A DNA stretch of 64,000 nt, from assembly GCA_016214145.1 (NCBI GenBank), contig JACRPA010000012.1:62001-126000 (forward strand), written 5' to 3'. Position numbers and translations under genes: made by a program. Position 1 is the first letter of the stretch; every line of letters starts with the position of its first letter. This document shows, one piece after another, positions 43,110 to 58,269 of the stretch. The notes under the pieces are model-generated. The model ran no database searches, was not told the origin of the DNA, and saw nothing but the letters and a program-made list of their open reading frames with translations. The DNA is from Rhodocyclales bacterium (GTDB taxonomy: Bacteria; Pseudomonadota; Gammaproteobacteria; Burkholderiales; Rhodocyclaceae).

Positions 43110-43120
<11 letters not shown>

Positions 43121-43490
43121 ACAGCAAAGTCAGTCCCCAGACCACGGCGGCATTGAGCAGAGACAGCATCACCGCCGCGCTGCCGAGGTCCTTGGCGCGT
43201 TTGGAGAGGTCGTGGCGTTCGCCGGAGACGCGGTCGACCACCGCCTCGACGGCGGAATTCAGCAGTTCGACGATGAGGATCAGCAGCAGGCTGCCGACCA
43301 GCAGCGCCCGCTCGATGCCGTTGTTGCCGAGATACAGCCCCAGCGGCAGCAGGGGCGCCACCAGCAGCAGTTCCTGGCGGAAGGCCGCCTCGTGGCGCCA
43401 GGCGGCCAGCAGGCCGTCGCGCGAGTAAAGCGTGGCGTTCCAGATGCGCTTGAGGCCGCCGCGGCTCTTGTGCGGCGAGGTGTGCGTCAT
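43110..43490 (-). CDS. dgkA: Diacylglycerol kinase
   Basis: A 126-residue inner membrane enzyme that phosphorylates diacylglycerol to phosphatidic acid. Three hydrophobic helices are visible (~40-56, 60-80, 103-124), with the active-site [15 protein letters not shown] (~75-89) and the E. coli-like [13 protein letters not shown] (~98-110). The size is normal. It is convergent with parC, and the last codons of the two genes overlap. Confidence 0.95.
43126..43149 (+). repeat. Dispersed two-part motif, copy 8
   Basis: Exact AAAGTCAGT-N9-ACGGCG, just downstream of the parC stop and inside the 3' end of dgkA. Confidence 0.8.
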
Positions 43491-43522: not shown

Positions 43523-45847
43523 CTACCCTCCGGCGATCATCGGGAACACCGTCACGCGGTCGCCGTTCCGCAGCGACACGTTTTTTTCCCCCGACAGCAC
43601 CATTTCGCCGTTGACGGCGACGTTGAGGTTGCGGTCGCCGAGCGCGCCGGCGGCTTCCGGCAGGCGGCGCTGCAGCGTCCGGCGCAGCTCGATGACGTTG
43701 AATACCGGCTCGTCGATGACCATGGCGTGCTCCGGCGCGCCGGGCACGTCGTTGGGCAGTTCGACGCGGACCGCAAAGCCGGTGATGACCTTCGCCAGCT
43801 TCTCGTGCCATTCCACCTGCGGCGCGCCCTCGGCGTTGAGCCCCGTCAGCGCATAGAAGCGCGTCTTCATCTGCTCGAACTGCGCGCGGTCGATCTTCTC
43901 GCCCTTGAACGGGCCGAAAGTGTTCTCCTCCTCGAACCAGCGTTGCGGCAGGGTGTCGTCCTTCCCCCGCAATCCGAGGCGGAAGTTGAGCATGTGCTCG
44001 ATGCCGGTGATGTTGTGGCCGATCTCGTCCATGTCGGCGGCGCTCAGCGCCGTGCCGGTGAGGGTGTTCACCTGCTCGGCGAAATCCGCCGGATCGGGCA
44101 GGGTGGGCGAGTTGAACAGCTTGGTGTCGAAGCGGCACATGCCGACCGAGTCGCCGACGGCGAAGGTGTTTTCGCATTTGCGCACGGCGAACTCCTTGCC
44201 CTCGTAGGAGTTGGGCTTGGCCGACACCGTGCCGCCGTAGAGCGCGGTCTTGAAGGCCGGATCGTCGTTGACGCGGGCGTTGATCTCCAGGGTGACGCGG
44301 TTGCGCAGGTGGTCCATGCCGCGCGTGGCCACCGACAGGCCGAGGGCGAAGGCCTTGAGGATGCGCGCGTCGTGCGGATCGGACTGGAACAGGCCCTTCA
44401 CCGACATGCGGTATTGCGCGGCCTCCGCCGGGTAGTGGCCCTTCTCGATGGCGCGGGACGAATCGGCGATGACATTGCCGAAGCCTTCGCGCTTCGCCGT
44501 CATGAAGAGCAGCTTCTCGATCGCCTCGTAGTTGCCCCAGGCGAGGTCCAGCCCGCCGGTTTCCTTCTGCGTGATGATGCCGCGCTGGTAGAGCTCCATG
44601 GCCCAGGCGAGGGCGCCGCCGGCGCTGGCCGAATCGAGGCCGAGGTCGTTGAGGACGTTGTTCAGGCGCAGCACCTGCTCCGGCTCCTTGATGCCGATGT
44701 TCGGGCCGAATTTGCCGAGGGTGACGTACTCGGGGCCGTCGCCCTTGTCGTAGCGGTCGAACTGTCCGTCGTTGTGGATGCCGTTGTAGGTCTTCTTGCG
44801 CTCGTGTTCGACCTCGGCCTGCGCCTTGTCGTAGCTGGCGTTGCCCTTCAGGCCCTTCAGCGCATGCGCCCCCCAGCCGCCCTTTCCTTCGGGCGTCATG
44901 TCGTTGAGGTTGCGGCAATGCACCGGGCATTTGAAGCAGCCATCCATGCCGGGGCGGTAGACGTCGAAGTTGTCGGCGTCCAGCGATTCGCCCCAGGTGG
45001 TTTCCTGGTTGTTCTTGGTGCCCATTGCGCCGAGTACCCGGCTCGGCTTGTAGAGGAAGGGCGTGCCGACCATCTTCAGGGCGTTCTTGATGACCGAGGT
45101 GCCGGTGATCTTCTTGCCGATGGCCTTGTTCTGCGCCTTGGCGTCGGCCGGCAGGGCGATTTCCGGCGGACGGCCGTGCACCATGATGGCCTTGAGGTTC
45201 AGCGAACCCATCTTGGCGCCGCCGCCGCCGCGCGCCCAGATGGCCTTGATGCCGCCCATGATGCCGGCGCACAGCACGCCGTTCTCGCCGGCGCTGGTGA
45301 TGCGGGCGAGCGCCATGTCCTTGCGCTCCTTGCATTTGAAGTCGTGCTCGACGGCCGCCGCCGTGTCGAGGTTGTTCAGGCCGGCGTAGGGCGTGGCGTC
45401 CTCGAAGCTGACTTCGCCGAGCGCGATGCGCAGCAGGGTCCATTTCGCGGCCTTGCCGTAGAGCACCAGGTGGTCGTAGCCGTGGCGCTTGAGGAAGGAA
45501 GGGAAATAGTCGCCGCCGTTGGCGTCGAGGATGGCGTAGGACTCGGGCGACTTGCTGGTGAAGTTGCCGCGCGTGGCCGAGGGCATCACGCTGGTCAGGA
45601 CGCCGGAACCGAAGATCAGCGGCACCTCCGGGTCGAGCGCGTCCTTTTCCTCCTGCAGCAGGTTGTAGAGCAGCCACATGTTGGCGCCGCGGCCGCCGAG
45701 GAAATGCGTCAGGACGTCGGCCGGCAGGTACTTGCGGCGGGTTTCGCGGCGCGCCAGGTCGACGAACAGCGTGGCGCCCTGCGTCGGGTACTGGGCGGTG
45801 TCGTGCAGCCGGCTGCACAGCCGGTCGACCAGGGTATGAATGCTCAT
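43523..45847 (-). CDS. Tungsten aldehyde:ferredoxin-type oxidoreductase with fused MoaD/ThiS-like tail
   Basis: A 774-residue enzyme of the AOR family. It should oxidise aldehydes to acids using a tungsto-bispterin and one [4Fe-4S] cluster. The cluster cysteines are C-x2-C-x3-C in DGCFKCPVHCRNL (~290-302) plus a distal Cys in DSVGMCRFD. N-terminal GGRGANMWLL is the first cofactor-binding block. Beyond the usual ~690 residues the chain continues with a ubiquitin-like domain (NVIELRRTLQRRLP, LNVAVNGEMV, LRNGDRVTVFPMIAGG), ending in the Gly-Gly typical of MoaD/ThiS sulfur carriers. In Aromatoleum the AorABC enzyme acts on phenylacetaldehyde. The AAGGAGG site fixes the start at 45847. No AorA or AorC gene is adjacent. 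Confidence 0.88.
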   Translation of the reverse strand: MSIHTLVDRLCSRLHDTAQYPTQGATLFVDLARRETRRKYLPADVLTHFLGGRGANMWLLYNLLQEEKDALDPEVPLIFGSGVLTSVMPSATRGNFTSKSPESYAILDANGGDYFPSFLKRHGYDHLVLYGKAAKWTLLRIALGEVSFEDATPYAGLNNLDTAAAVEHDFKCKERKDMALARITSAGENGVLCAGIMGGIKAIWARGGGGAKMGSLNLKAIMVHGRPPEIALPADAKAQNKAIGKKITGTSVIKNALKMVGTPFLYKPSRVLGAMGTKNNQETTWGESLDADNFDVYRPGMDGCFKCPVHCRNLNDMTPEGKGGWGAHALKGLKGNASYDKAQAEVEHERKKTYNGIHNDGQFDRYDKGDGPEYVTLGKFGPNIGIKEPEQVLRLNNVLNDLGLDSASAGGALAWAMELYQRGIITQKETGGLDLAWGNYEAIEKLLFMTAKREGFGNVIADSSRAIEKGHYPAEAAQYRMSVKGLFQSDPHDARILKAFALGLSVATRGMDHLRNRVTLEINARVNDDPAFKTALYGGTVSAKPNSYEGKEFAVRKCENTFAVGDSVGMCRFDTKLFNSPTLPDPADFAEQVNTLTGTALSAADMDEIGHNITGIEHMLNFRLGLRGKDDTLPQRWFEEENTFGPFKGEKIDRAQFEQMKTRFYALTGLNAEGAPQVEWHEKLAKVITGFAVRVELPNDVPGAPEHAMVIDEPVFNVIELRRTLQRRLPEAAGALGDRNLNVAVNGEMVLSGEKNVSLRNGDRVTVFPMIAGG

Positions 45848-46014: not shown

Positions 46015-47898
46015 ATGTCGGTTTCGGCAGGAACAGCAGAAGTCGAGGCGAAAAGGGCCGGGAACGGGCGCGCGCCGCGCCGCCCGGTGGAGGAGCTCGA
46101 CAGCGTCGTCATCCGCTTCGTCGGGGATTCCGGCGACGGCATGCAGCTCACCGGCAACGAGTTTTCCAAGGCCATCGCCAAGGCGGGACACGATTTCGCC
46201 ACCCATCCCGACTATCCCTCGGAAATCCGCGCCCCGACCGGCACGCTGTTCGGCGTCTCCGGCTACCAGATCCAGTTCGCCTCGCGCCAGGTGTTCACCT
46301 CCGGCGACGCGCCGGACGTGCTGGTGGCCATGAACCCGGCGGCGCTGAAGACCAACCTCGCCGACGTCAAGCACGGCGGCATCATCATCGCCAACGGCGG
46401 CGCCTTCACCGACAACAACCTGGCCAAGGCCGGCTACAAGAGCAATCCCCTCGAGGACGGCAGCCTCGGTGGCTATCGCCTCTACCGGATCGACATTTCC
46501 GACCTGACCGCGCATGCCCTGAAGGATGCCGGCCTCTCCAAAAAGGATGTCGGCCGCTGCAAGAACTACTACGCGCTCGGCCTCATGCTCTCCCTCTACA
46601 GCCGTCCCCTCGAACGGGAGGAGGAGGACATCCGCAGGAAGTTCGCCAGGAAGCCGGAGATCGCCGGGGCCAACGTGCTGGCGCTGCGCGCCGGCTATGC
46701 CTACGCCGACGCCACCGAGATGTTCATCACCGCCTACCGCGTGCGCTCGGCCGACATCCGCCCGGGCACCTACCGCAGCCTCACCGGCAACCATGCCGCC
46801 GCGCTCGGTTTCGTCGCCGCTTCCGAGCTCTCCGGCGTGCCGCTCTTCCTCGGCTCCTATCCGATCACGCCGGCCACCGACATCCTGCACGAGCTGTCGG
46901 CGCTGAAGCATTTCAACGTCACCACCTTCCAGGCCGAGGATGAGATTGCCGGCATCTGCTCGGCCATCGGCGCGGCCTACGGCGGCGTCCTCGGCATGAC
47001 CACCACCTCCGGGCCCGGCATGGCGCTGAAGACGGAGGCGCTCGGCCTCGCCGTGATGCTGGAACTGCCGCTGGTGATCGTGAACGTGCAGCGCGGCGGC
47101 CCCTCGACCGGCCTGCCGACCAAGATCGAACAGTCCGACCTGCTGCAGGCCGTCTACGGCCGCAACGGCGAATGCCCGATTCCGGTGATCGCATCGAGTT
47201 CCCCCGCCGACTGCTTCGACTGCGCCATCGAGGCCTTCCGCCTCGCCGTGAAGTACATGACGCCGGTGATCCTGCTGTCCGACGGCGGCATCGGCAATGC
47301 CGCCGAACCGTGGCGCATTCCCGATCCGGCGTCCCTGCCGAAGCTGGAAGTGAAGTTCCGCACCGATGCGGAAGGCTTCCAGGCCTATGCGCGCGACGCC
47401 AACCTGGCGCGCGCCTGGGTGCGCCCCGGCACGCCCGGCATGGAGCACCGCATCGGCGGACTGGAGAAGGATTTCCTCACCGGCAACATCTCGCACGATC
47501 CGGACAACCACCAGCGCATGGTCGAGGTGCGCGCCGCCAAGGTGGCCGGCATTGCCGGGGACATCCCGCCGCTGCGGGTGGAAGGCCCGGAAAAAGGAGA
47601 TCTGCTCATCGTCGGCTGGGGCAGCACCTACGGCTCCATCGTGCAGGCGCGCGAGCAGGCCGCGGCGGAAGGCTACTCCGTCGCCCACGTGCACCTGCGC
47701 CACCTGAATCCCTTCCCGCAGGACCTCGGCGACCTTCTCAAGCGCTACAGGACGGTGCTGGTGCCGGAGATGAACCTCGGCCAGCTCTCCCGCCTGCTGC
47801 GCGAGCGCTACCTGCGCGAGGTGGTGCCGCTCAACAAGGTGCAGGGCAAGCCGTTCAAGGTGTCCGAGATCCACGACCGCATCGTCGAGCTAATGTAG
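46015..47898 (+). CDS. korA: 2-oxoglutarate:ferredoxin oxidoreductase, gamma-alpha fused subunit
   Basis: A 627-residue subunit. The N-terminal gamma domain is ~28-200 (FVGDSGDGMQLTGNEF), followed by the alpha (pyrimidine-binding) domain ~225-600 with GSYPITPATDILHELS and the loop TTTSGPGMALKTEALGLA. In Thauera and Azoarcus the KorAB enzyme regenerates the reduced ferredoxin used by benzoyl-CoA reductase. The order korA-korB-ferredoxin here fits that role, though a TCA-cycle function is also possible. The start at 46015 follows GAGGAGGCA. Its TAG stop belongs to a type A repeat. Confidence 0.88.
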   Translation: MSVSAGTAEVEAKRAGNGRAPRRPVEELDSVVIRFVGDSGDGMQLTGNEFSKAIAKAGHDFATHPDYPSEIRAPTGTLFGVSGYQIQFASRQVFTSGDAPDVLVAMNPAALKTNLADVKHGGIIIANGGAFTDNNLAKAGYKSNPLEDGSLGGYRLYRIDISDLTAHALKDAGLSKKDVGRCKNYYALGLMLSLYSRPLEREEEDIRRKFARKPEIAGANVLALRAGYAYADATEMFITAYRVRSADIRPGTYRSLTGNHAAALGFVAASELSGVPLFLGSYPITPATDILHELSALKHFNVTTFQAEDEIAGICSAIGAAYGGVLGMTTTSGPGMALKTEALGLAVMLELPLVIVNVQRGGPSTGLPTKIEQSDLLQAVYGRNGECPIPVIASSSPADCFDCAIEAFRLAVKYMTPVILLSDGGIGNAAEPWRIPDPASLPKLEVKFRTDAEGFQAYARDANLARAWVRPGTPGMEHRIGGLEKDFLTGNISHDPDNHQRMVEVRAAKVAGIAGDIPPLRVEGPEKGDLLIVGWGSTYGSIVQAREQAAAEGYSVAHVHLRHLNPFPQDLGDLLKRYRTVLVPEMNLGQLSRLLRERYLREVVPLNKVQGKPFKVSEIHDRIVELM

Positions 47899-47962
47899 GT
47901 CGGGCTTCAGCCCGACCACGGCGACCGATCTACCGCAGGCGTCGGGCTGAAGCCCGACCTAC
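47895..47962. repeat. Type A palindromic repeat between korA and korB
   Basis: GTAGGTCGGGCTTCAGCCCG, core, CGGGCTGAAGCCCGACCTAC. It provides the korA stop codon and fills the gap to korB. Confidence 0.85.
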
Positions 47963-47975
47963 GCTGGAGACAAAA

Positions 47976-49275
<1,300 letters not shown>

Positions 49276-53910: not shown

Positions 53911-55224
53911 TTACCGCGCCCTTCTGTCCACCACCCGCCGCGCCTTGCCGACCGGGCGCTCGATGCTCGCCGTCGGCACCACGCGCACGCGGGCCGAGAT
54001 TCCGATGAACGACTTGATGTGGTGCTGCAGCTCGGCGGCGGCCTGCCGCTGCGCCGCTTCGCCCGAATTTCCCGCCTCCGGGCTCATCTCCACCTGCACC
54101 TCGATCTCGTCCATGTGCCGCGGCCGCGTCACCTCGATGACGTAGTGCGGGGCGAGGGCGGGGCTCTTCAGGATCAGCTCCTCGATCTGGCTGGGAAAGA
54201 CGTTCACGCCGCGGATGATCAGCATGTCGTCCGAGCGGCCGGCGAGTTTGTCCAGGCGGCGCATCGTCCGCGCCGCGCCGGGCAGCAGCCGGGTGAGGTC
54301 GCGCGTGCGGTAGCGGACCACCGGCAGCGCCTCCTTGGTCAGCGAGGTGATGACCAGCTCGCCGAATTCCCCGTCGGGCAGCACCTCGCCGGTCGACGGG
54401 TCGATGATCTCCGGGTAGAAGTGGTCCTCCCAGATCGTCGGGCCGTCCCGGGTCTCCAGGCACTCCATCGCCACGCCCGGGCCGATGATCTCGGAGAGCC
54501 CGTAGCACTCCATGACGTCGAGGGCCATGCGCGACTCGATCACCGCGCGCATCTCCCGCGTGCACGGCTCGCCGCCGGCCAGCGCCAGCTTCAGGCTGGT
54601 CGCCGCCGGGTCGATGCCCTGTTCGGCGAAGCCGTCGGCGAGCGTCAGCAGGTAGGTGGGCGTGCAGCAGATGATCTTCGGGCCGAAGTCGCCGATGAGC
54701 TGCACCTGCTTCTCGGTCTGGCCGCCCGACATCGGGATGACCGTACAGCCGAGGCGCTCGGCGCCGTAGTGGAAGCCCAGCCCGCCGGTGAACAGGCCGT
54801 AGCCGTTGCTGTTGTGCACGAGGTCGCCCGGCCGGCCGCCGGCGGCGAAAATCGAGCGCGCCATGACGTTCGCCCACATGTCGAGGTCGGCCCGCGTGTA
54901 GCCGACGACGGTGGGCTTGCCGGTGGTGCCGCTGGAGGCATGCAGGCGAATGATCTGATTGCGCGGCACGGCGAACAGGCCGAAGGGGTAGGCGTCGCGC
55001 AGGTCGCCCTTCGTGGTGAAGGGGAATTTCGCCAGGTCGCCCAGGGACTTGAGGTCGTCCGGGTGCGCCCCGGCCGCCTCGAACTTGCGGCGGACGGGTT
55101 CGACGTTCCGATACGCGTGGGCCAGCGACCACTGCATGCGTTTAAGCTGCAGGGCGGCGAGCGCGTCGCGGCTGGACGTTTCGACGGGGTCGTAGGCGTC
55201 CCCAAGTGCTTCTTTGCAACCCAT
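53911..55224 (-). CDS. padJ: Phenylacetate-CoA ligase
   Basis: A 437-residue AMP-forming ligase that turns phenylacetate, ATP and CoA into phenylacetyl-CoA. The ATP loop is LHASSGTTGKPTVVGYT (~94-110), with CYGLSEIIGPGV (~246-257), YRTRDLTRLLPG (~322-333) and the C-terminal GRSDDMLIIRGVNVFPSQIE (seen as RSDDMLIIRGVNVFP). It belongs to the PaaK/PadJ family; the anaerobic name is chosen from the padBCD neighbours. The start is uncertain: in-frame ATGs at 55266, 55248 and 55224 exist. 55224 gives the normal family start and leaves the FNR box at 55278 outside the gene. Confidence 0.9.
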   Translation of the reverse strand: MGCKEALGDAYDPVETSSRDALAALQLKRMQWSLAHAYRNVEPVRRKFEAAGAHPDDLKSLGDLAKFPFTTKGDLRDAYPFGLFAVPRNQIIRLHASSGTTGKPTVVGYTRADLDMWANVMARSIFAAGGRPGDLVHNSNGYGLFTGGLGFHYGAERLGCTVIPMSGGQTEKQVQLIGDFGPKIICCTPTYLLTLADGFAEQGIDPAATSLKLALAGGEPCTREMRAVIESRMALDVMECYGLSEIIGPGVAMECLETRDGPTIWEDHFYPEIIDPSTGEVLPDGEFGELVITSLTKEALPVVRYRTRDLTRLLPGAARTMRRLDKLAGRSDDMLIIRGVNVFPSQIEELILKSPALAPHYVIEVTRPRHMDEIEVQVEMSPEAGNSGEAAQRQAAAELQHHIKSFIGISARVRVVPTASIERPVGKARRVVDRRAR

Positions 55225-55277
55225 TTTCAACAGTTTACCCCAGGCCATCCCGGCATCGCCCGGCATTCCCGACGGGT

Positions 55278-55291: not shown

Positions 55292-55462
55292 TCGCGAGCA
55301 TTGCAATTCTCCCAAAAATGATACAAAATAAACCAACAGTTATTCATAATATGAATCATCAAGCGGATTGCACGGTTGCCCGGCGCGGGTCCGGGCGGGC
55401 GCAATAAGGCCCGTAGCGGCAGGCAATCTTCGCGAATGGGCGGGTGGGCCAAGGAGGAGTCG

Positions 55463-55528
55463 ATGAAGGGCATTGCTGTCGGCATATCTGCCGAAAAACG
55501 TATCACGACGGCCGGGCGGGCCGCCTGA
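55463..55528 (+). CDS. Possible 21-residue leader peptide before padB
   Basis: An ATG with an excellent AAGGAGGAG ribosome site opens a 21-codon frame that ends in TGA at 55526-55528, two bases before the padB ATG. It is out of frame with padB. padB itself has a poor ribosome site, so translational coupling through this short frame is likely. The peptide (MKGIAVGISAEKR and a short Thr/Ala/Arg tail) has no recognisable function. Confidence 0.5.
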   Translation: MKGIAVGISAEKRITTAGRAA

Positions 55529-55530
55529 CC

Positions 55531-58269
55531 ATGGCCGCCGCGAAATCCGTCAAGAAGGTTCCGCAGTACTGCTACCAGTGCGTGGCGGGCCCCGATCTGC
55601 TCACCGTCAAGGTGGAGGACGGCGTCGCCACCGAGGTCGAGCCGAACTTCTCCGCCTGCGACGTGCATCCCGGCGCCGGCAAGTGCTGCGTCAAGGCCTA
55701 CGGCATCATCCAGAAGACCTACAGCCCGAACCGGCTGCTCGCCCCGATGAAGCGCACCAACCCGAAGAAGGGGCGCCACGAGGATCCCGGCTTCGTGCCG
55801 ATTTCCTGGGACGAGGCCTTCGACATCATCGGCGCGAAGATGAAGGAGATCCGCGCCAGGGGGCTCACCAACGAGTACGGCTATCCACGCGCGGCGGCCA
55901 GCTTCGGCGGCGGCGGCATTCCCACCTACTACATGGGCACCTTCCCGGCCTTCCTCGCCGCCTGGGGGCCGGTGGATTTCAGCTACGGCAGCGGCCAGGG
56001 CGTCAGCTGCACGCATTCCGAGCACCTCTACGGCGAGCTGTGGCACCGCGCCTTCACCGTCTGCCCGGACACCCCGAGCTGCAACTACGTGCTCTCCTTC
56101 GGCGCCAACGTCGAGGCCTCGGGCGGCGTGGTCGGCGCCTGGCGCCACGGCGTGGCGCGCGAGCGGGGCATGAAGCGCGTCCAGTTCGAGCCGCACCTGT
56201 CGGTCACCGGCGCCGCCTCGGCCGAATGGGTGCCCATCAAGCCCAAGACCGATGCCGCCTTTCTCTTCGGGCTGGTCCATGTCCTGGTGCGCGAGATGCC
56301 GCGCGAAAAGCTCGACGTGCCCTTCCTCAAGCAGCACACCGGCTCGCCCTACCTGATCGGCCCCAACGGCTTCTACCTGCGCGACCCGGCGACGAGGAAG
56401 CCCCTGCTGTGGGACCTGAAGCGCAATGCCGCCGTGCCCTTCGACACGCCCGACACAGACCCGGCCCTCGACGGCGCGTTCACCCTCGATGCCATCGAAG
56501 TCGGCGCCGACGAAGAGACGTGGACCCACCGCGGCCTCGCGGCCGAGACGGCCTTCGGCAAGCTGGTCGAGCGCATGCGGCCCTACACGCCCGAGTGGGC
56601 GGAGCAGACCTGCGACGTCAGGAGCGGCACGGTGCGCCGCATCGCCGCCGAGTACGTCGAGCAGGCCCGGGTGGGCGCGACGGTCGAGATCGACGGGGAG
56701 ACGCTGCCCTACCGGCCGGTGTCCATCCAGTTCGGCCGGACGGTGAACAACGGCTGGGGCGCCTACGAATGCTGCTGGGCGCGCACTCTGATGGCCTGCC
56801 TGGTCGGCGGCCTGGAGGTGCCGGGCGGCACCCTCGGCACCACGGTGCGGCTGAACCGGCCGGCGACGACGCGGCAGGCGAGCGTCAGGATCAACGAGGA
56901 CGGCTTCATGTTTTACCCCATGAACCCGACCGACAAGGCGAATTGGGCCGCCAAGCCCAAGGTGCGCAATGCCCACGACACCATGGTGCCCCTGTCGGCG
57001 AGCTCGCCCTGGAGCACAGCGCTCGGCCCGACCCACTTCTCGTGGATGTTCCAGAAGGAGTCGCCCGACGAGAACTGGCCCAAGGTCACGCCGCCCGACA
57101 TCTGGTTCTGCTACCGCACCAATCCCTCGATTTCCTTCTGGGACACCAAGGAGCTCTCCAAGCGCATCGCCGAATTCCCCTTCATCGTGGCCTTCGCCTA
57201 CAACCGCGACGAGACCAACCACATGGCGGATGTCCTGCTGCCCGAGTGCACCGACATCGAGAGCACGCAGCTGATCCGCGTCGGCGGCAGCAAGTTCATC
57301 GAGCAGTTCTGGGACCACGAAGGATTCGCCCTGCGCCAGCCCGCCGTGGCGCCGGCGGGGGCGACGCGCGACTTCACCGAGATCGCCACGGAGCTGGCGG
57401 TGCGGGCCGGCCTCCTCGAGCAGTACAACGAAGCCATCAACCGCGGCTCGGCCTGCGTGCGGCTGTCTTCCGACCAATACGACTTTTCGCTCGACCCGAA
57501 ACAGCGGCACGATGCGCAGACGATCTGGGACCGCACCTGCCGCGCCGCCAGCGCCGAACTGACCGAAGGCAGGGAGAGCGACGGGCTGGACTGGTTCAAG
57601 GAGCACGGCCTGCGCACCCGCCCGATCTCGCGCCTGTCCTGGTATCTGTTCCCCGAACTGAGGAAGAAGGGCATCCGCTTCGAGATGCCGTTCCAGGAGC
57701 GCCTCTATCGCGTCGGCGTCGAGCTGGGCCACCGCCTGCACGAGCAGGGCATCAAGTGGTGGGATGTGCAGCTCGAGGAGTACGGCGGGCTGCCGAAGGT
57801 GATGGATTTCCCCGGCATCTGGGAGCAGGAGACCGTCCGGCAGGCCGGCGCCGGCGCGCTGGCCGACTACCCCTTCTGGCTCATCACCTCGCGCAGCATG
57901 CAGTACGCATGGGGCAGCAACGTCGGCGTCCCGCTGATGAACGAGGTTTCCGGCAACGTGCGCGGCAGCAAGGGCGTGCTCATCAACCGCCGCAGGGCGC
58001 AGGAACTGGGCATCGAGGAGGGCGACATCGTCGAGGTGAGCTCCTACGTCGGCGCCACTCGGGGACCGGCGATGCTGGCCGAGGGCATCCGCGCCGACAC
58101 CCTGCTGATGATGGGCCAGTTCGACCATTGGGCCACCCCCTACGCCAAGGACCTGCACAAGCCGAGCATGAACAGCCTGATCCCGATGTCGATGGCGCTC
58201 ACCGACTCCACCGGCTCCTCGGCCGACATCGTGCGCGTCGGCGTGAAGAAGCTGGAGGCGGCGTCATGA
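55531..58269 (+). CDS. padB: Phenylacetyl-CoA:acceptor oxidoreductase, molybdopterin subunit
   Basis: A 912-residue member of the DMSO reductase family. With PadC and PadD it oxidises phenylacetyl-CoA to phenylglyoxylate with release of CoA, passing electrons to quinone. The N-terminus has a Cys cluster for [4Fe-4S] (YCYQC, SACDVH, KCCVKAYG, ~13-58). The catalytic region holds SYGSGQGVSCTHSEHL (~150-165), and the C-terminal cofactor-cap domain has LINRRRAQELGIEEGDIVEV. No Tat signal is seen, which implies a cytoplasmic enzyme as reported for this type. The start follows a short upstream frame (55463-55528). Its stop region carries a near copy of the two-part motif. Confidence 0.9.
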   Translation: MAAAKSVKKVPQYCYQCVAGPDLLTVKVEDGVATEVEPNFSACDVHPGAGKCCVKAYGIIQKTYSPNRLLAPMKRTNPKKGRHEDPGFVPISWDEAFDIIGAKMKEIRARGLTNEYGYPRAAASFGGGGIPTYYMGTFPAFLAAWGPVDFSYGSGQGVSCTHSEHLYGELWHRAFTVCPDTPSCNYVLSFGANVEASGGVVGAWRHGVARERGMKRVQFEPHLSVTGAASAEWVPIKPKTDAAFLFGLVHVLVREMPREKLDVPFLKQHTGSPYLIGPNGFYLRDPATRKPLLWDLKRNAAVPFDTPDTDPALDGAFTLDAIEVGADEETWTHRGLAAETAFGKLVERMRPYTPEWAEQTCDVRSGTVRRIAAEYVEQARVGATVEIDGETLPYRPVSIQFGRTVNNGWGAYECCWARTLMACLVGGLEVPGGTLGTTVRLNRPATTRQASVRINEDGFMFYPMNPTDKANWAAKPKVRNAHDTMVPLSASSPWSTALGPTHFSWMFQKESPDENWPKVTPPDIWFCYRTNPSISFWDTKELSKRIAEFPFIVAFAYNRDETNHMADVLLPECTDIESTQLIRVGGSKFIEQFWDHEGFALRQPAVAPAGATRDFTEIATELAVRAGLLEQYNEAINRGSACVRLSSDQYDFSLDPKQRHDAQTIWDRTCRAASAELTEGRESDGLDWFKEHGLRTRPISRLSWYLFPELRKKGIRFEMPFQERLYRVGVELGHRLHEQGIKWWDVQLEEYGGLPKVMDFPGIWEQETVRQAGAGALADYPFWLITSRSMQYAWGSNVGVPLMNEVSGNVRGSKGVLINRRRAQELGIEEGDIVEVSSYVGATRGPAMLAEGIRADTLLMMGQFDHWATPYAKDLHKPSMNSLIPMSMALTDSTGSSADIVRVGVKKLEAAS

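Follow-up and report, generated by a model that had tools for sequence, protein, structure and literature searches.

A fusion of a MoaD-like protein to the carboxyl-terminal end of an aldehyde ferredoxin oxidoreductase was noticed in Azoarcus by Iyer, Burroughs and Aravind in 2006, being worded as 'might be fused' in the text and 'is fused' in a table, for one genus (PMC1779556). They proposed that such a MoaD linked to an aldehyde oxidoreductase (AOR) may serve tungsten-cofactor synthesis (PMC1779556). Here, we examine a gene of the same architecture in a Rhodocyclales bacterium, in a stretch of 64,000 nucleotides that we call the window (contig JACRPA010000012.1, positions 62,001 to 126,000). 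Having been noticed in 2006, the fusion is not new; it is here confirmed and shown to mark a conserved group.

The Azoarcus fusion comes from the same lineage as the clade described below and likely belongs to it. The passages of the 2006 paper that deal with it hold no Gly-Gly survey, insertion, active-site changes or wider spread, all of which are given here. Our literature search found a report of the fusion only in that paper, and other mentions may exist in subscription papers and supplements, which lay outside the search. The same search found no experimental work on the fused group.

In the better known systems the carrier is a separate gene. The aor operon of Aromatoleum aromaticum EbN1 encodes the three-subunit AorABC with an AOR-family large subunit, and also separate MoaD-like AorD and AorE that were not in the purified enzyme (PMC6365974). 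A 2026 classification of more than 4,000 WORs describes a separate ThiS-like WorX, the exact function of which is not known (PMC13328260). Its class I WORs have a single large subunit, as may be the case here, and some have a nearby ThiS-like gene predicted for pterin synthesis, but WorX is a gene of its own, unlike the fused tail. In the main text of that paper 'MoaD' and 'fusion' are absent and the single 'fused' refers to ModBC. In T. kodakarensis, UblB, a ubiquitin-like protein (Ubl) of the MoaD family, is described as involved in tungsten-cofactor synthesis for GOR (PMC11323500).

It is not settled how tungsten- and molybdenum-pterin enzymes come to receive their cofactor from the correct carrier. 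A carrier welded to its client would allow dedicated sulfur delivery to be tested in a single gene. The window's own genome (3.42 Mb, 12 contigs) has two further AORs. One lies in an apparent aorA-aorB-aorC-aorD set on contig 1 (locus L013, 8289-11995), its AOR recognised by profile and its aorA and aorC named by eye. The set resembles the EbN1 operon, and its AorD is a separate MoaD-like protein of 84 residues that ends in WPPIAGG. Hence the fused and split versions of AOR and carrier coexist in this genome. The separate MoaD-like gene in Aromatoleum loci that an earlier note on this sequence had mentioned is indeed described.

The fused gene and its parts are as follows.

43523..45847, minus strand: fused WOR/AOR-family protein with a C-terminal MoaD-like domain, 774 residues (translation, Pfam, AlphaFold2 model).
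43796..45847, minus strand: AOR/WOR catalytic part, residues 1-684 (Pfam, alignment to 1aor).
44735..44914, minus strand: stretch from the Cys triad to the GPEY motif, residues 312-371, which holds a clade-specific insertion (length comparison).
43526..43789, minus strand: MoaD-like beta-grasp domain, residues 687-774, ending in Gly773-Gly774 (PF02597, tail-only model, Gly-Gly conservation).

The coordinates 43523-45847 in the earlier note were correct and the strand, which it lacked, is minus. The protein is a single frame from the ATG at 45847, with AAGGAGG immediately 5′ of it, and its C-terminus reads VTVFPMIAGG, so it ends exactly in Gly-Gly. Pfam finds AFOR_N at residues 26-225 (E 8.8e-48), AFOR_C at 241-684 (E 6.1e-90) and ThiS PF02597 at 717-774 (E 1.1e-7, 32.8 bits against a cut-off of 22.5). 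The ThiS model matches 43 of 44 scanned clade sequences at E 0.001, the window protein included. In the PDB sequence search, the top match to the whole protein is P. furiosus AOR, and the tail alone draws weak matches to MoaD- or ThiS-type chains (best E 0.018).

Relatives were collected by one scan of a contig collection with a four-sequence alignment and two peptide patterns, both taken from the AOR part and not from the tail. The scan gave 199 stretches encoding a relative, and the best 80 of the 199 were kept and make up 77 loci with 66-93% identity, so the survey concerns close relatives. Two of them, L094 and L096, are cut by contig ends. This leaves 75 complete homologues, or 76 sequences with the window's own. 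The fusion of AOR and a ThiS/MoaD-type domain is real, as first noticed: a frame error or assembly artefact is ruled out because a single open reading frame (ORF) encodes the fusion in the window and in each of the 75 complete homologues, some of which come from isolates. In an open frame of 1351 residues at locus L174, Pfam finds the AOR and ThiS domains alone, at the frame end, and the extra length is probably mere open frame.

The terminal Gly-Gly, whose conservation in close homologues the earlier note had named as a check of its reading, stands at the very C-terminus in 76/76 complete sequences. The residues before it vary, the two preceding ones occurring in 10 combinations (IAGG 54, VSGG 9, LGGG 4 and seven others). 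Apart from this motif, invariance within residues 690-774 is limited to P705, D712, A732 and E754. Mean conservation is 0.68 in the tail and 0.82 in the AOR part, and the median pairwise ratios of nonsynonymous to synonymous substitution rates (dN/dS) are 0.34 and 0.26, respectively, both far under 1. By these ratios, the tail is under purifying selection.

We modelled the whole protein by AlphaFold2 with 44 sequences and folded the tail also alone. The whole model has a predicted template modelling score (pTM) of 0.84 and a mean predicted local distance difference test score (pLDDT) of 75.1, and its AOR part matches the tungsten AORs with fold-comparison Z scores of 41.1 to 9mqx and 38.7 to 1aor. 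Residues 692-774 of it match E. coli MoaD (1nvi_D) with Z 11.4 and a root-mean-square deviation of 2.1 Å over 78 residues. The tail-only model, with a mean pLDDT of 83.4, gives Z 11.6 and 2.1 over 80 residues including Gly-Gly, spanning MoaD residues 1-81. The predicted structures thus bear out the MoaD-like fold that the earlier note had read from the sequence.

The ThiS chains score Z 7.0-7.6 (7.4-7.6 for the tail alone), about 4 under MoaD and at the level of ubiquitins. In fold, the tail as modelled therefore resembles MoaD more than ThiS. CysO-type carriers and SAMP1 lie 1 Z or slightly more from MoaD at most and are counted as tied. The SAMP1 structures, at Z 9.8-10.7, are as close as MoaD within this tie limit, as would suit a ubiquitin- or SAMP-like modifier that links the enzyme's C-terminus to other proteins, and Ubls of T. 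kodakarensis reportedly serve in both roles (PMC11323500). None of the 26 profiled neighbour clusters (see below) is a conjugation or JAB-type protease gene, although no direct search for these genes was made. We consider such a modifier the least probable of the explanations for the tail.

The junction between the two parts is short. In the full model, helix 678-689 leads almost directly into strand 693-696, and the junction residues T689 and G690 are each conserved in 75/76. The earlier note's other suggestion, a tag for maturation that is removed once the cofactor is in place, is very improbable because the junction is short and conserved, with no long flexible linker; beyond the domain order, we found nothing in its favour. 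The last four tail residues have low confidence (pLDDT 49), as expected of a free end.

An exact C-terminal Gly-Gly is the chemical requirement for activation by E1-like enzymes. The best-supported reading is a WOR-family enzyme with its own fused MoaD-type sulfur carrier, acting in cis, because MoeB-type activation calls for just such an exact and invariant Gly-Gly on a MoaD fold; on balance, we hold this reading to be just probable. The cell's MoeB would charge the free Gly-Gly end by adenylation and thiocarboxylation, after which the tail would dock into MoaE. The dithiolene sulfurs of molybdopterin would then be made beside the apo-enzyme and channelled to its own active site, which would need two such pterins per metal, if like other AORs. 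The fused protein would be the covalent form of the pair of AOR and separate AorD or WorX.

Directly supported are the modelled fold and the exact Gly-Gly end with its strict conservation, and genes of the MoeB/ThiF type and for MoaE do exist at other places in the genome. Also in favour of the reading are the apparently free end of the tail, the purifying selection on it, the separate MoaD-like genes that accompany unfused AORs (L097, L171, L173 and the L013 set) and the role described for UblB. The ThiF/MoeB family has two matches above cut-off, one of them strong, and MoaE has one match, in a moeA-moaD-moaE set (MoaD by PF02597, MoaE by PF02391, MoeA in front by eye). The genome has also a thiS-thiG set, ThiS recognised by profile and ThiG by eye. 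MoaD, the small subunit of molybdopterin synthase, shares with the tail the fold, the size and the exact Gly-Gly end; the tail differs in being fused to the enzyme that it would serve.

Several observations weigh against a carrier in cis. The tail scores 22.2 bits on the MoaD equivalog TIGR01682, below its cut-off of 66.15, which is another difference from MoaD, and its first strand looks by eye unlike that of the genome's MoaD. The modelled fold alone does not single out pterin synthesis, since MoaD, CysO and SAMP1 are tied within 1 Z. The window's genome has also MoaD, AorD and ThiS, and all of the 18 fused genomes scanned hold, besides the fused frame (776-852 residues), at least two further ThiS-family matches in short frames. 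Thus, the tail would be an extra carrier and not the only one.

Likewise, the flanks of the 76 fused loci, which contig ends often cut short, gave no MoaE, MoaD, MoeB or AorD match (phmmer, E 1e-6), so the sulfur-transfer partners would act in trans. A MoeA match occurs in one of the 76 flanks. In 10 of the 12 near unfused relatives, no MoaD-like ORF ending in Gly-Gly was recognised by eye in the fetched stretch, which is short for some.

The tail may instead be a docking or quality-control handle for MoaE, MoeA or another maturation factor, the finished pterin being handed over with no sulfur carried and Gly-Gly serving for binding. The standalone carriers in the same genomes would suit such a handle, and so would the stronger divergence of the tail than of the AOR part, its score under the MoaD cut-off and the short conserved junction that fixes it to the enzyme. 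The exact Gly-Gly end in every sequence is harder to explain by docking alone. We regard the handle as unlikely, although it deserves some weight.

The catalytic half has the membership features of the AOR/WOR family, namely AFOR_N with AFOR_C, the AOR fold and the four cluster cysteines. By alignment to 1aor, the 4Fe-4S cysteines C304, C307, C311 and C571 are each present in 76/76 fused proteins, and this half probably binds a tungsten-bis-pterin. The second-shell residues were transferred by the same alignment. Four of them, Thr243, Glu313, Tyr427 and His448, are listed for aldehyde-oxidising AORs (PMC12096430), and second-shell residues are named also in PMC13328260. Thr243 and His448 are kept as T262 and H513, each in 76/76.

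The other two are missing throughout. The Glu313 column has no Glu in any of the 76 (V 59, I 12, T 2, A 2, S 1) and the Tyr427 column is His in all. In the window protein, the two columns fall at residues 375 and 492, respectively. As the AOR of C. formicoaceticum also has His in place of Tyr427 (PMC12096430), the loss of Glu313 is the stronger departure. Unlike the fused protein, the L013 AorB keeps both residues, as do L097 and the second AOR of L175. Both are missing from the 12 near unfused relatives, so the change extends over a broader branch than the fusion does.

The earlier note had called the protein a tungsten aldehyde oxidoreductase. Its membership of the AOR/WOR family stands by domains and fold, but the aldehyde function is weakened by the two changes. 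Judged from the sequences, the annotation 'aldehyde (ferredoxin) oxidoreductase' is unproven here since the clade is without Glu313 and Tyr427; 'aldehyde ferredoxin oxidoreductase' is unsafe for the fused group and 'aldehyde' is best held back. Because two residues proposed for aldehyde oxidation are missing, purified members of the clade would put the proposed AOR mechanism to the test and may turn out to catalyse a different reaction.

A parallel case is BamB of the class II benzoyl-CoA reductase, a tungsten enzyme of the AOR/WOR family that catalyses a different reaction and is likewise described as being without the usual second-shell residues (PMC12096430). It is less similar in fold to the fused protein (Z 28.5) than the best AOR is (Z 41.1), and its tungsten has a Cys ligand.

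The insertion is found in every fused protein. The spacing from C311 to GPEY is 61 residues in 76/76, versus 11-26 in 15 unfused AORs (the 12 near relatives, L097, the second AOR in L175 and the own genome's AorB), which makes this stretch about 42 residues longer than in most of these. The insertion is strongly conserved, with for example G335, N336, A337, Y339 and D340 in 76/76, and adjoins the cluster and metal-site motifs. In the model it has mostly low pLDDT. The AOR core falls below pLDDT 50 at 249-275, 283-351, 369-380, 504-529, 544-546 and 574-581, so the model is unreliable for most of the insertion and for what surrounds it. The insertion and the missing Glu313 and Tyr427, the latter pair missing also from the nearest unfused relatives, are new here.

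The co-occurrence of insertion and tail in 76/76 is consistent also with a purely structural or interaction domain of the mature enzyme, such as a docking surface for ferredoxin or a subunit, with Gly-Gly held by packing. Candidates for the small and FAD subunits are few nearby, as such a domain might lead one to expect: AorA-like matches occur in two of the 76 loci (L043, L091) and an AorC-like one in one (L027), in flanks many of which are cut by contig ends. By Pfam, the L027 match is a pyridine-nucleotide reductase and the L091 match is a frame with 4Fe-4S domains. These matches bear also on membership of class I WORs, which should have no gene for a WorS or WorN subunit close by. The scarcity of invariant residues in the tail and the low confidence of its last four speak against packing, and we find a purely structural role improbable.

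A more far-reaching proposal is that the clade, with its permanent carrier and the insertion, builds the dithiolene in cis with MoaE and catalyses something other than plain aldehyde oxidation, perhaps a ferredoxin-driven reduction of aromatic carboxylic or CoA-activated substrates. This combination is doubtful at present.

The clade hosts are Rhodocyclales, Aromatoleum, Azoarcus, Sulfuritalea, other betaproteobacterial bins, Motiliproteus, Amphritea, Geothermobacter and other Desulfuromonadales/Geobacteraceae bins. The Azoarcus/Aromatoleum members are L029, L030, L032, L033, L035, L038-L040 and L048. In whole genomes, the fusion is rare. It occurs in 4/399 genomes of the order (own included), in 1/398 of a phylum draw (own only) and in 4/297 of the phylum of genome G774 (itself included); some positives overlap the named loci (G132 with L034, G010 with L043). 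In the phylum of G774, the next-best matches drop to 47% identity or less and are mostly frames of about 613-650 residues.

None of the 15 unfused AORs checked has a Gly-Gly C-terminus. A separate MoaD-like gene lies directly downstream of the unfused AOR in L097 and about 0.5-1 kb downstream in L171 and L173, and the fused gene may plausibly have arisen from two neighbours that joined. Among the relatives examined, no immediate unfused ancestor came to light. The origin of the tail was not resolved by a tree of 51 short ThiS/MoaD domains: the fused tails needed two changes, 45% of the bootstrap trees had one, and long branches came together.

Two kinds of candidate for other fusions were discarded. 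A Peptoclostridium match covering 98% of the query looked like an independent fusion in Firmicutes but is two adjacent genes; other independent fusions were not searched systematically. Among other long ThiS-bearing frames (about 550-640 residues), the two that were read, in G770 and G132, look like ThiS-rhodanese-ThiF fusions and not AORs. At L128 (1446-3062, plus strand) and L129 (546-2105, minus strand), one ORF each joins by eye a MoaD/ThiS-like domain, a rhodanese and ThiF/MoeB, in genomes (G770, G132) that carry also a fused AOR.

The main neighbours in the window are these.

46015..47898, plus strand: 2-oxoacid:acceptor oxidoreductase alpha (KorA-like), divergent neighbour (TIGR03710 above cut-off; start set by eye at an in-frame ATG behind AGGAGG).
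47172..49001, plus strand: frame with 2-oxoacid:acceptor oxidoreductase beta (KorB-like; PRK11866 and TIGR02177, both below curated cut-offs).
49021..49275, plus strand: YfhL-type 2[4Fe-4S] ferredoxin (NF033683 above cut-off).
53911..55266, minus strand: AMP-binding acyl-CoA ligase that clusters by BLAST with the PaaK-like ligases found at other fused loci (PF00501, PF14535).

The KorB-like match begins at residue 278 of its frame, so the gene start is near 48.0 kb. By its position, the YfhL-type ferredoxin is a possible electron partner of the fused enzyme. Acyl-CoA ligase genes lie within about 10 kb of the fused gene in the window.

Across the 76 loci, neighbours were clustered by single-linkage BLAST of script-called ORFs, so their counts are approximate, and 26 of more than 100 clusters were profiled by one representative each. 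The clusters include KorA in 29 loci, KorB in 17, YfhL ferredoxin in 21, MarR in 25, PaaK-like ligase in 27, benzoate-CoA-ligase-like in 20, ADP-forming acyl-CoA synthetase in 14 and TRAP transport in 22. Any of the three ligase kinds is found in 53/76 loci, and in 30/36 of those with full 8-kb flanks. With acyl-CoA ligases, 2-oxoacid:ferredoxin oxidoreductase, ferredoxin and TRAP transport, the neighbourhood suggests a ferredoxin-linked, perhaps aromatic, carboxylic acid or aldehyde metabolism, the nature of the substrate being our inference.

At L053 (6358-7662), the coding sequence of a ferritin/rubrerythrin-like domain separates the Kor genes from the fused gene, and its ferritin-like cluster 6 is present in 18/76 loci. 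In the window, a DMSO-reductase-family molybdopterin enzyme that scores below every equivalog cut-off is encoded about 10 kb from the fused gene (55444-58269, plus strand). A diacylglycerol kinase gene on the fused gene's strand (43110-43490, minus) starts 32 bases past its stop and is probably incidental. Rfam at the gathering threshold finds three tRNAs only at 36-54 kb.

Two nearby copies of the fused gene are present in eight loci (L036, L046, L050, L052, L058, L060, L068 and L069). A MarR-type gene lies between the copies in 8/8 of them and a PaaK-like ligase gene in 7/8.

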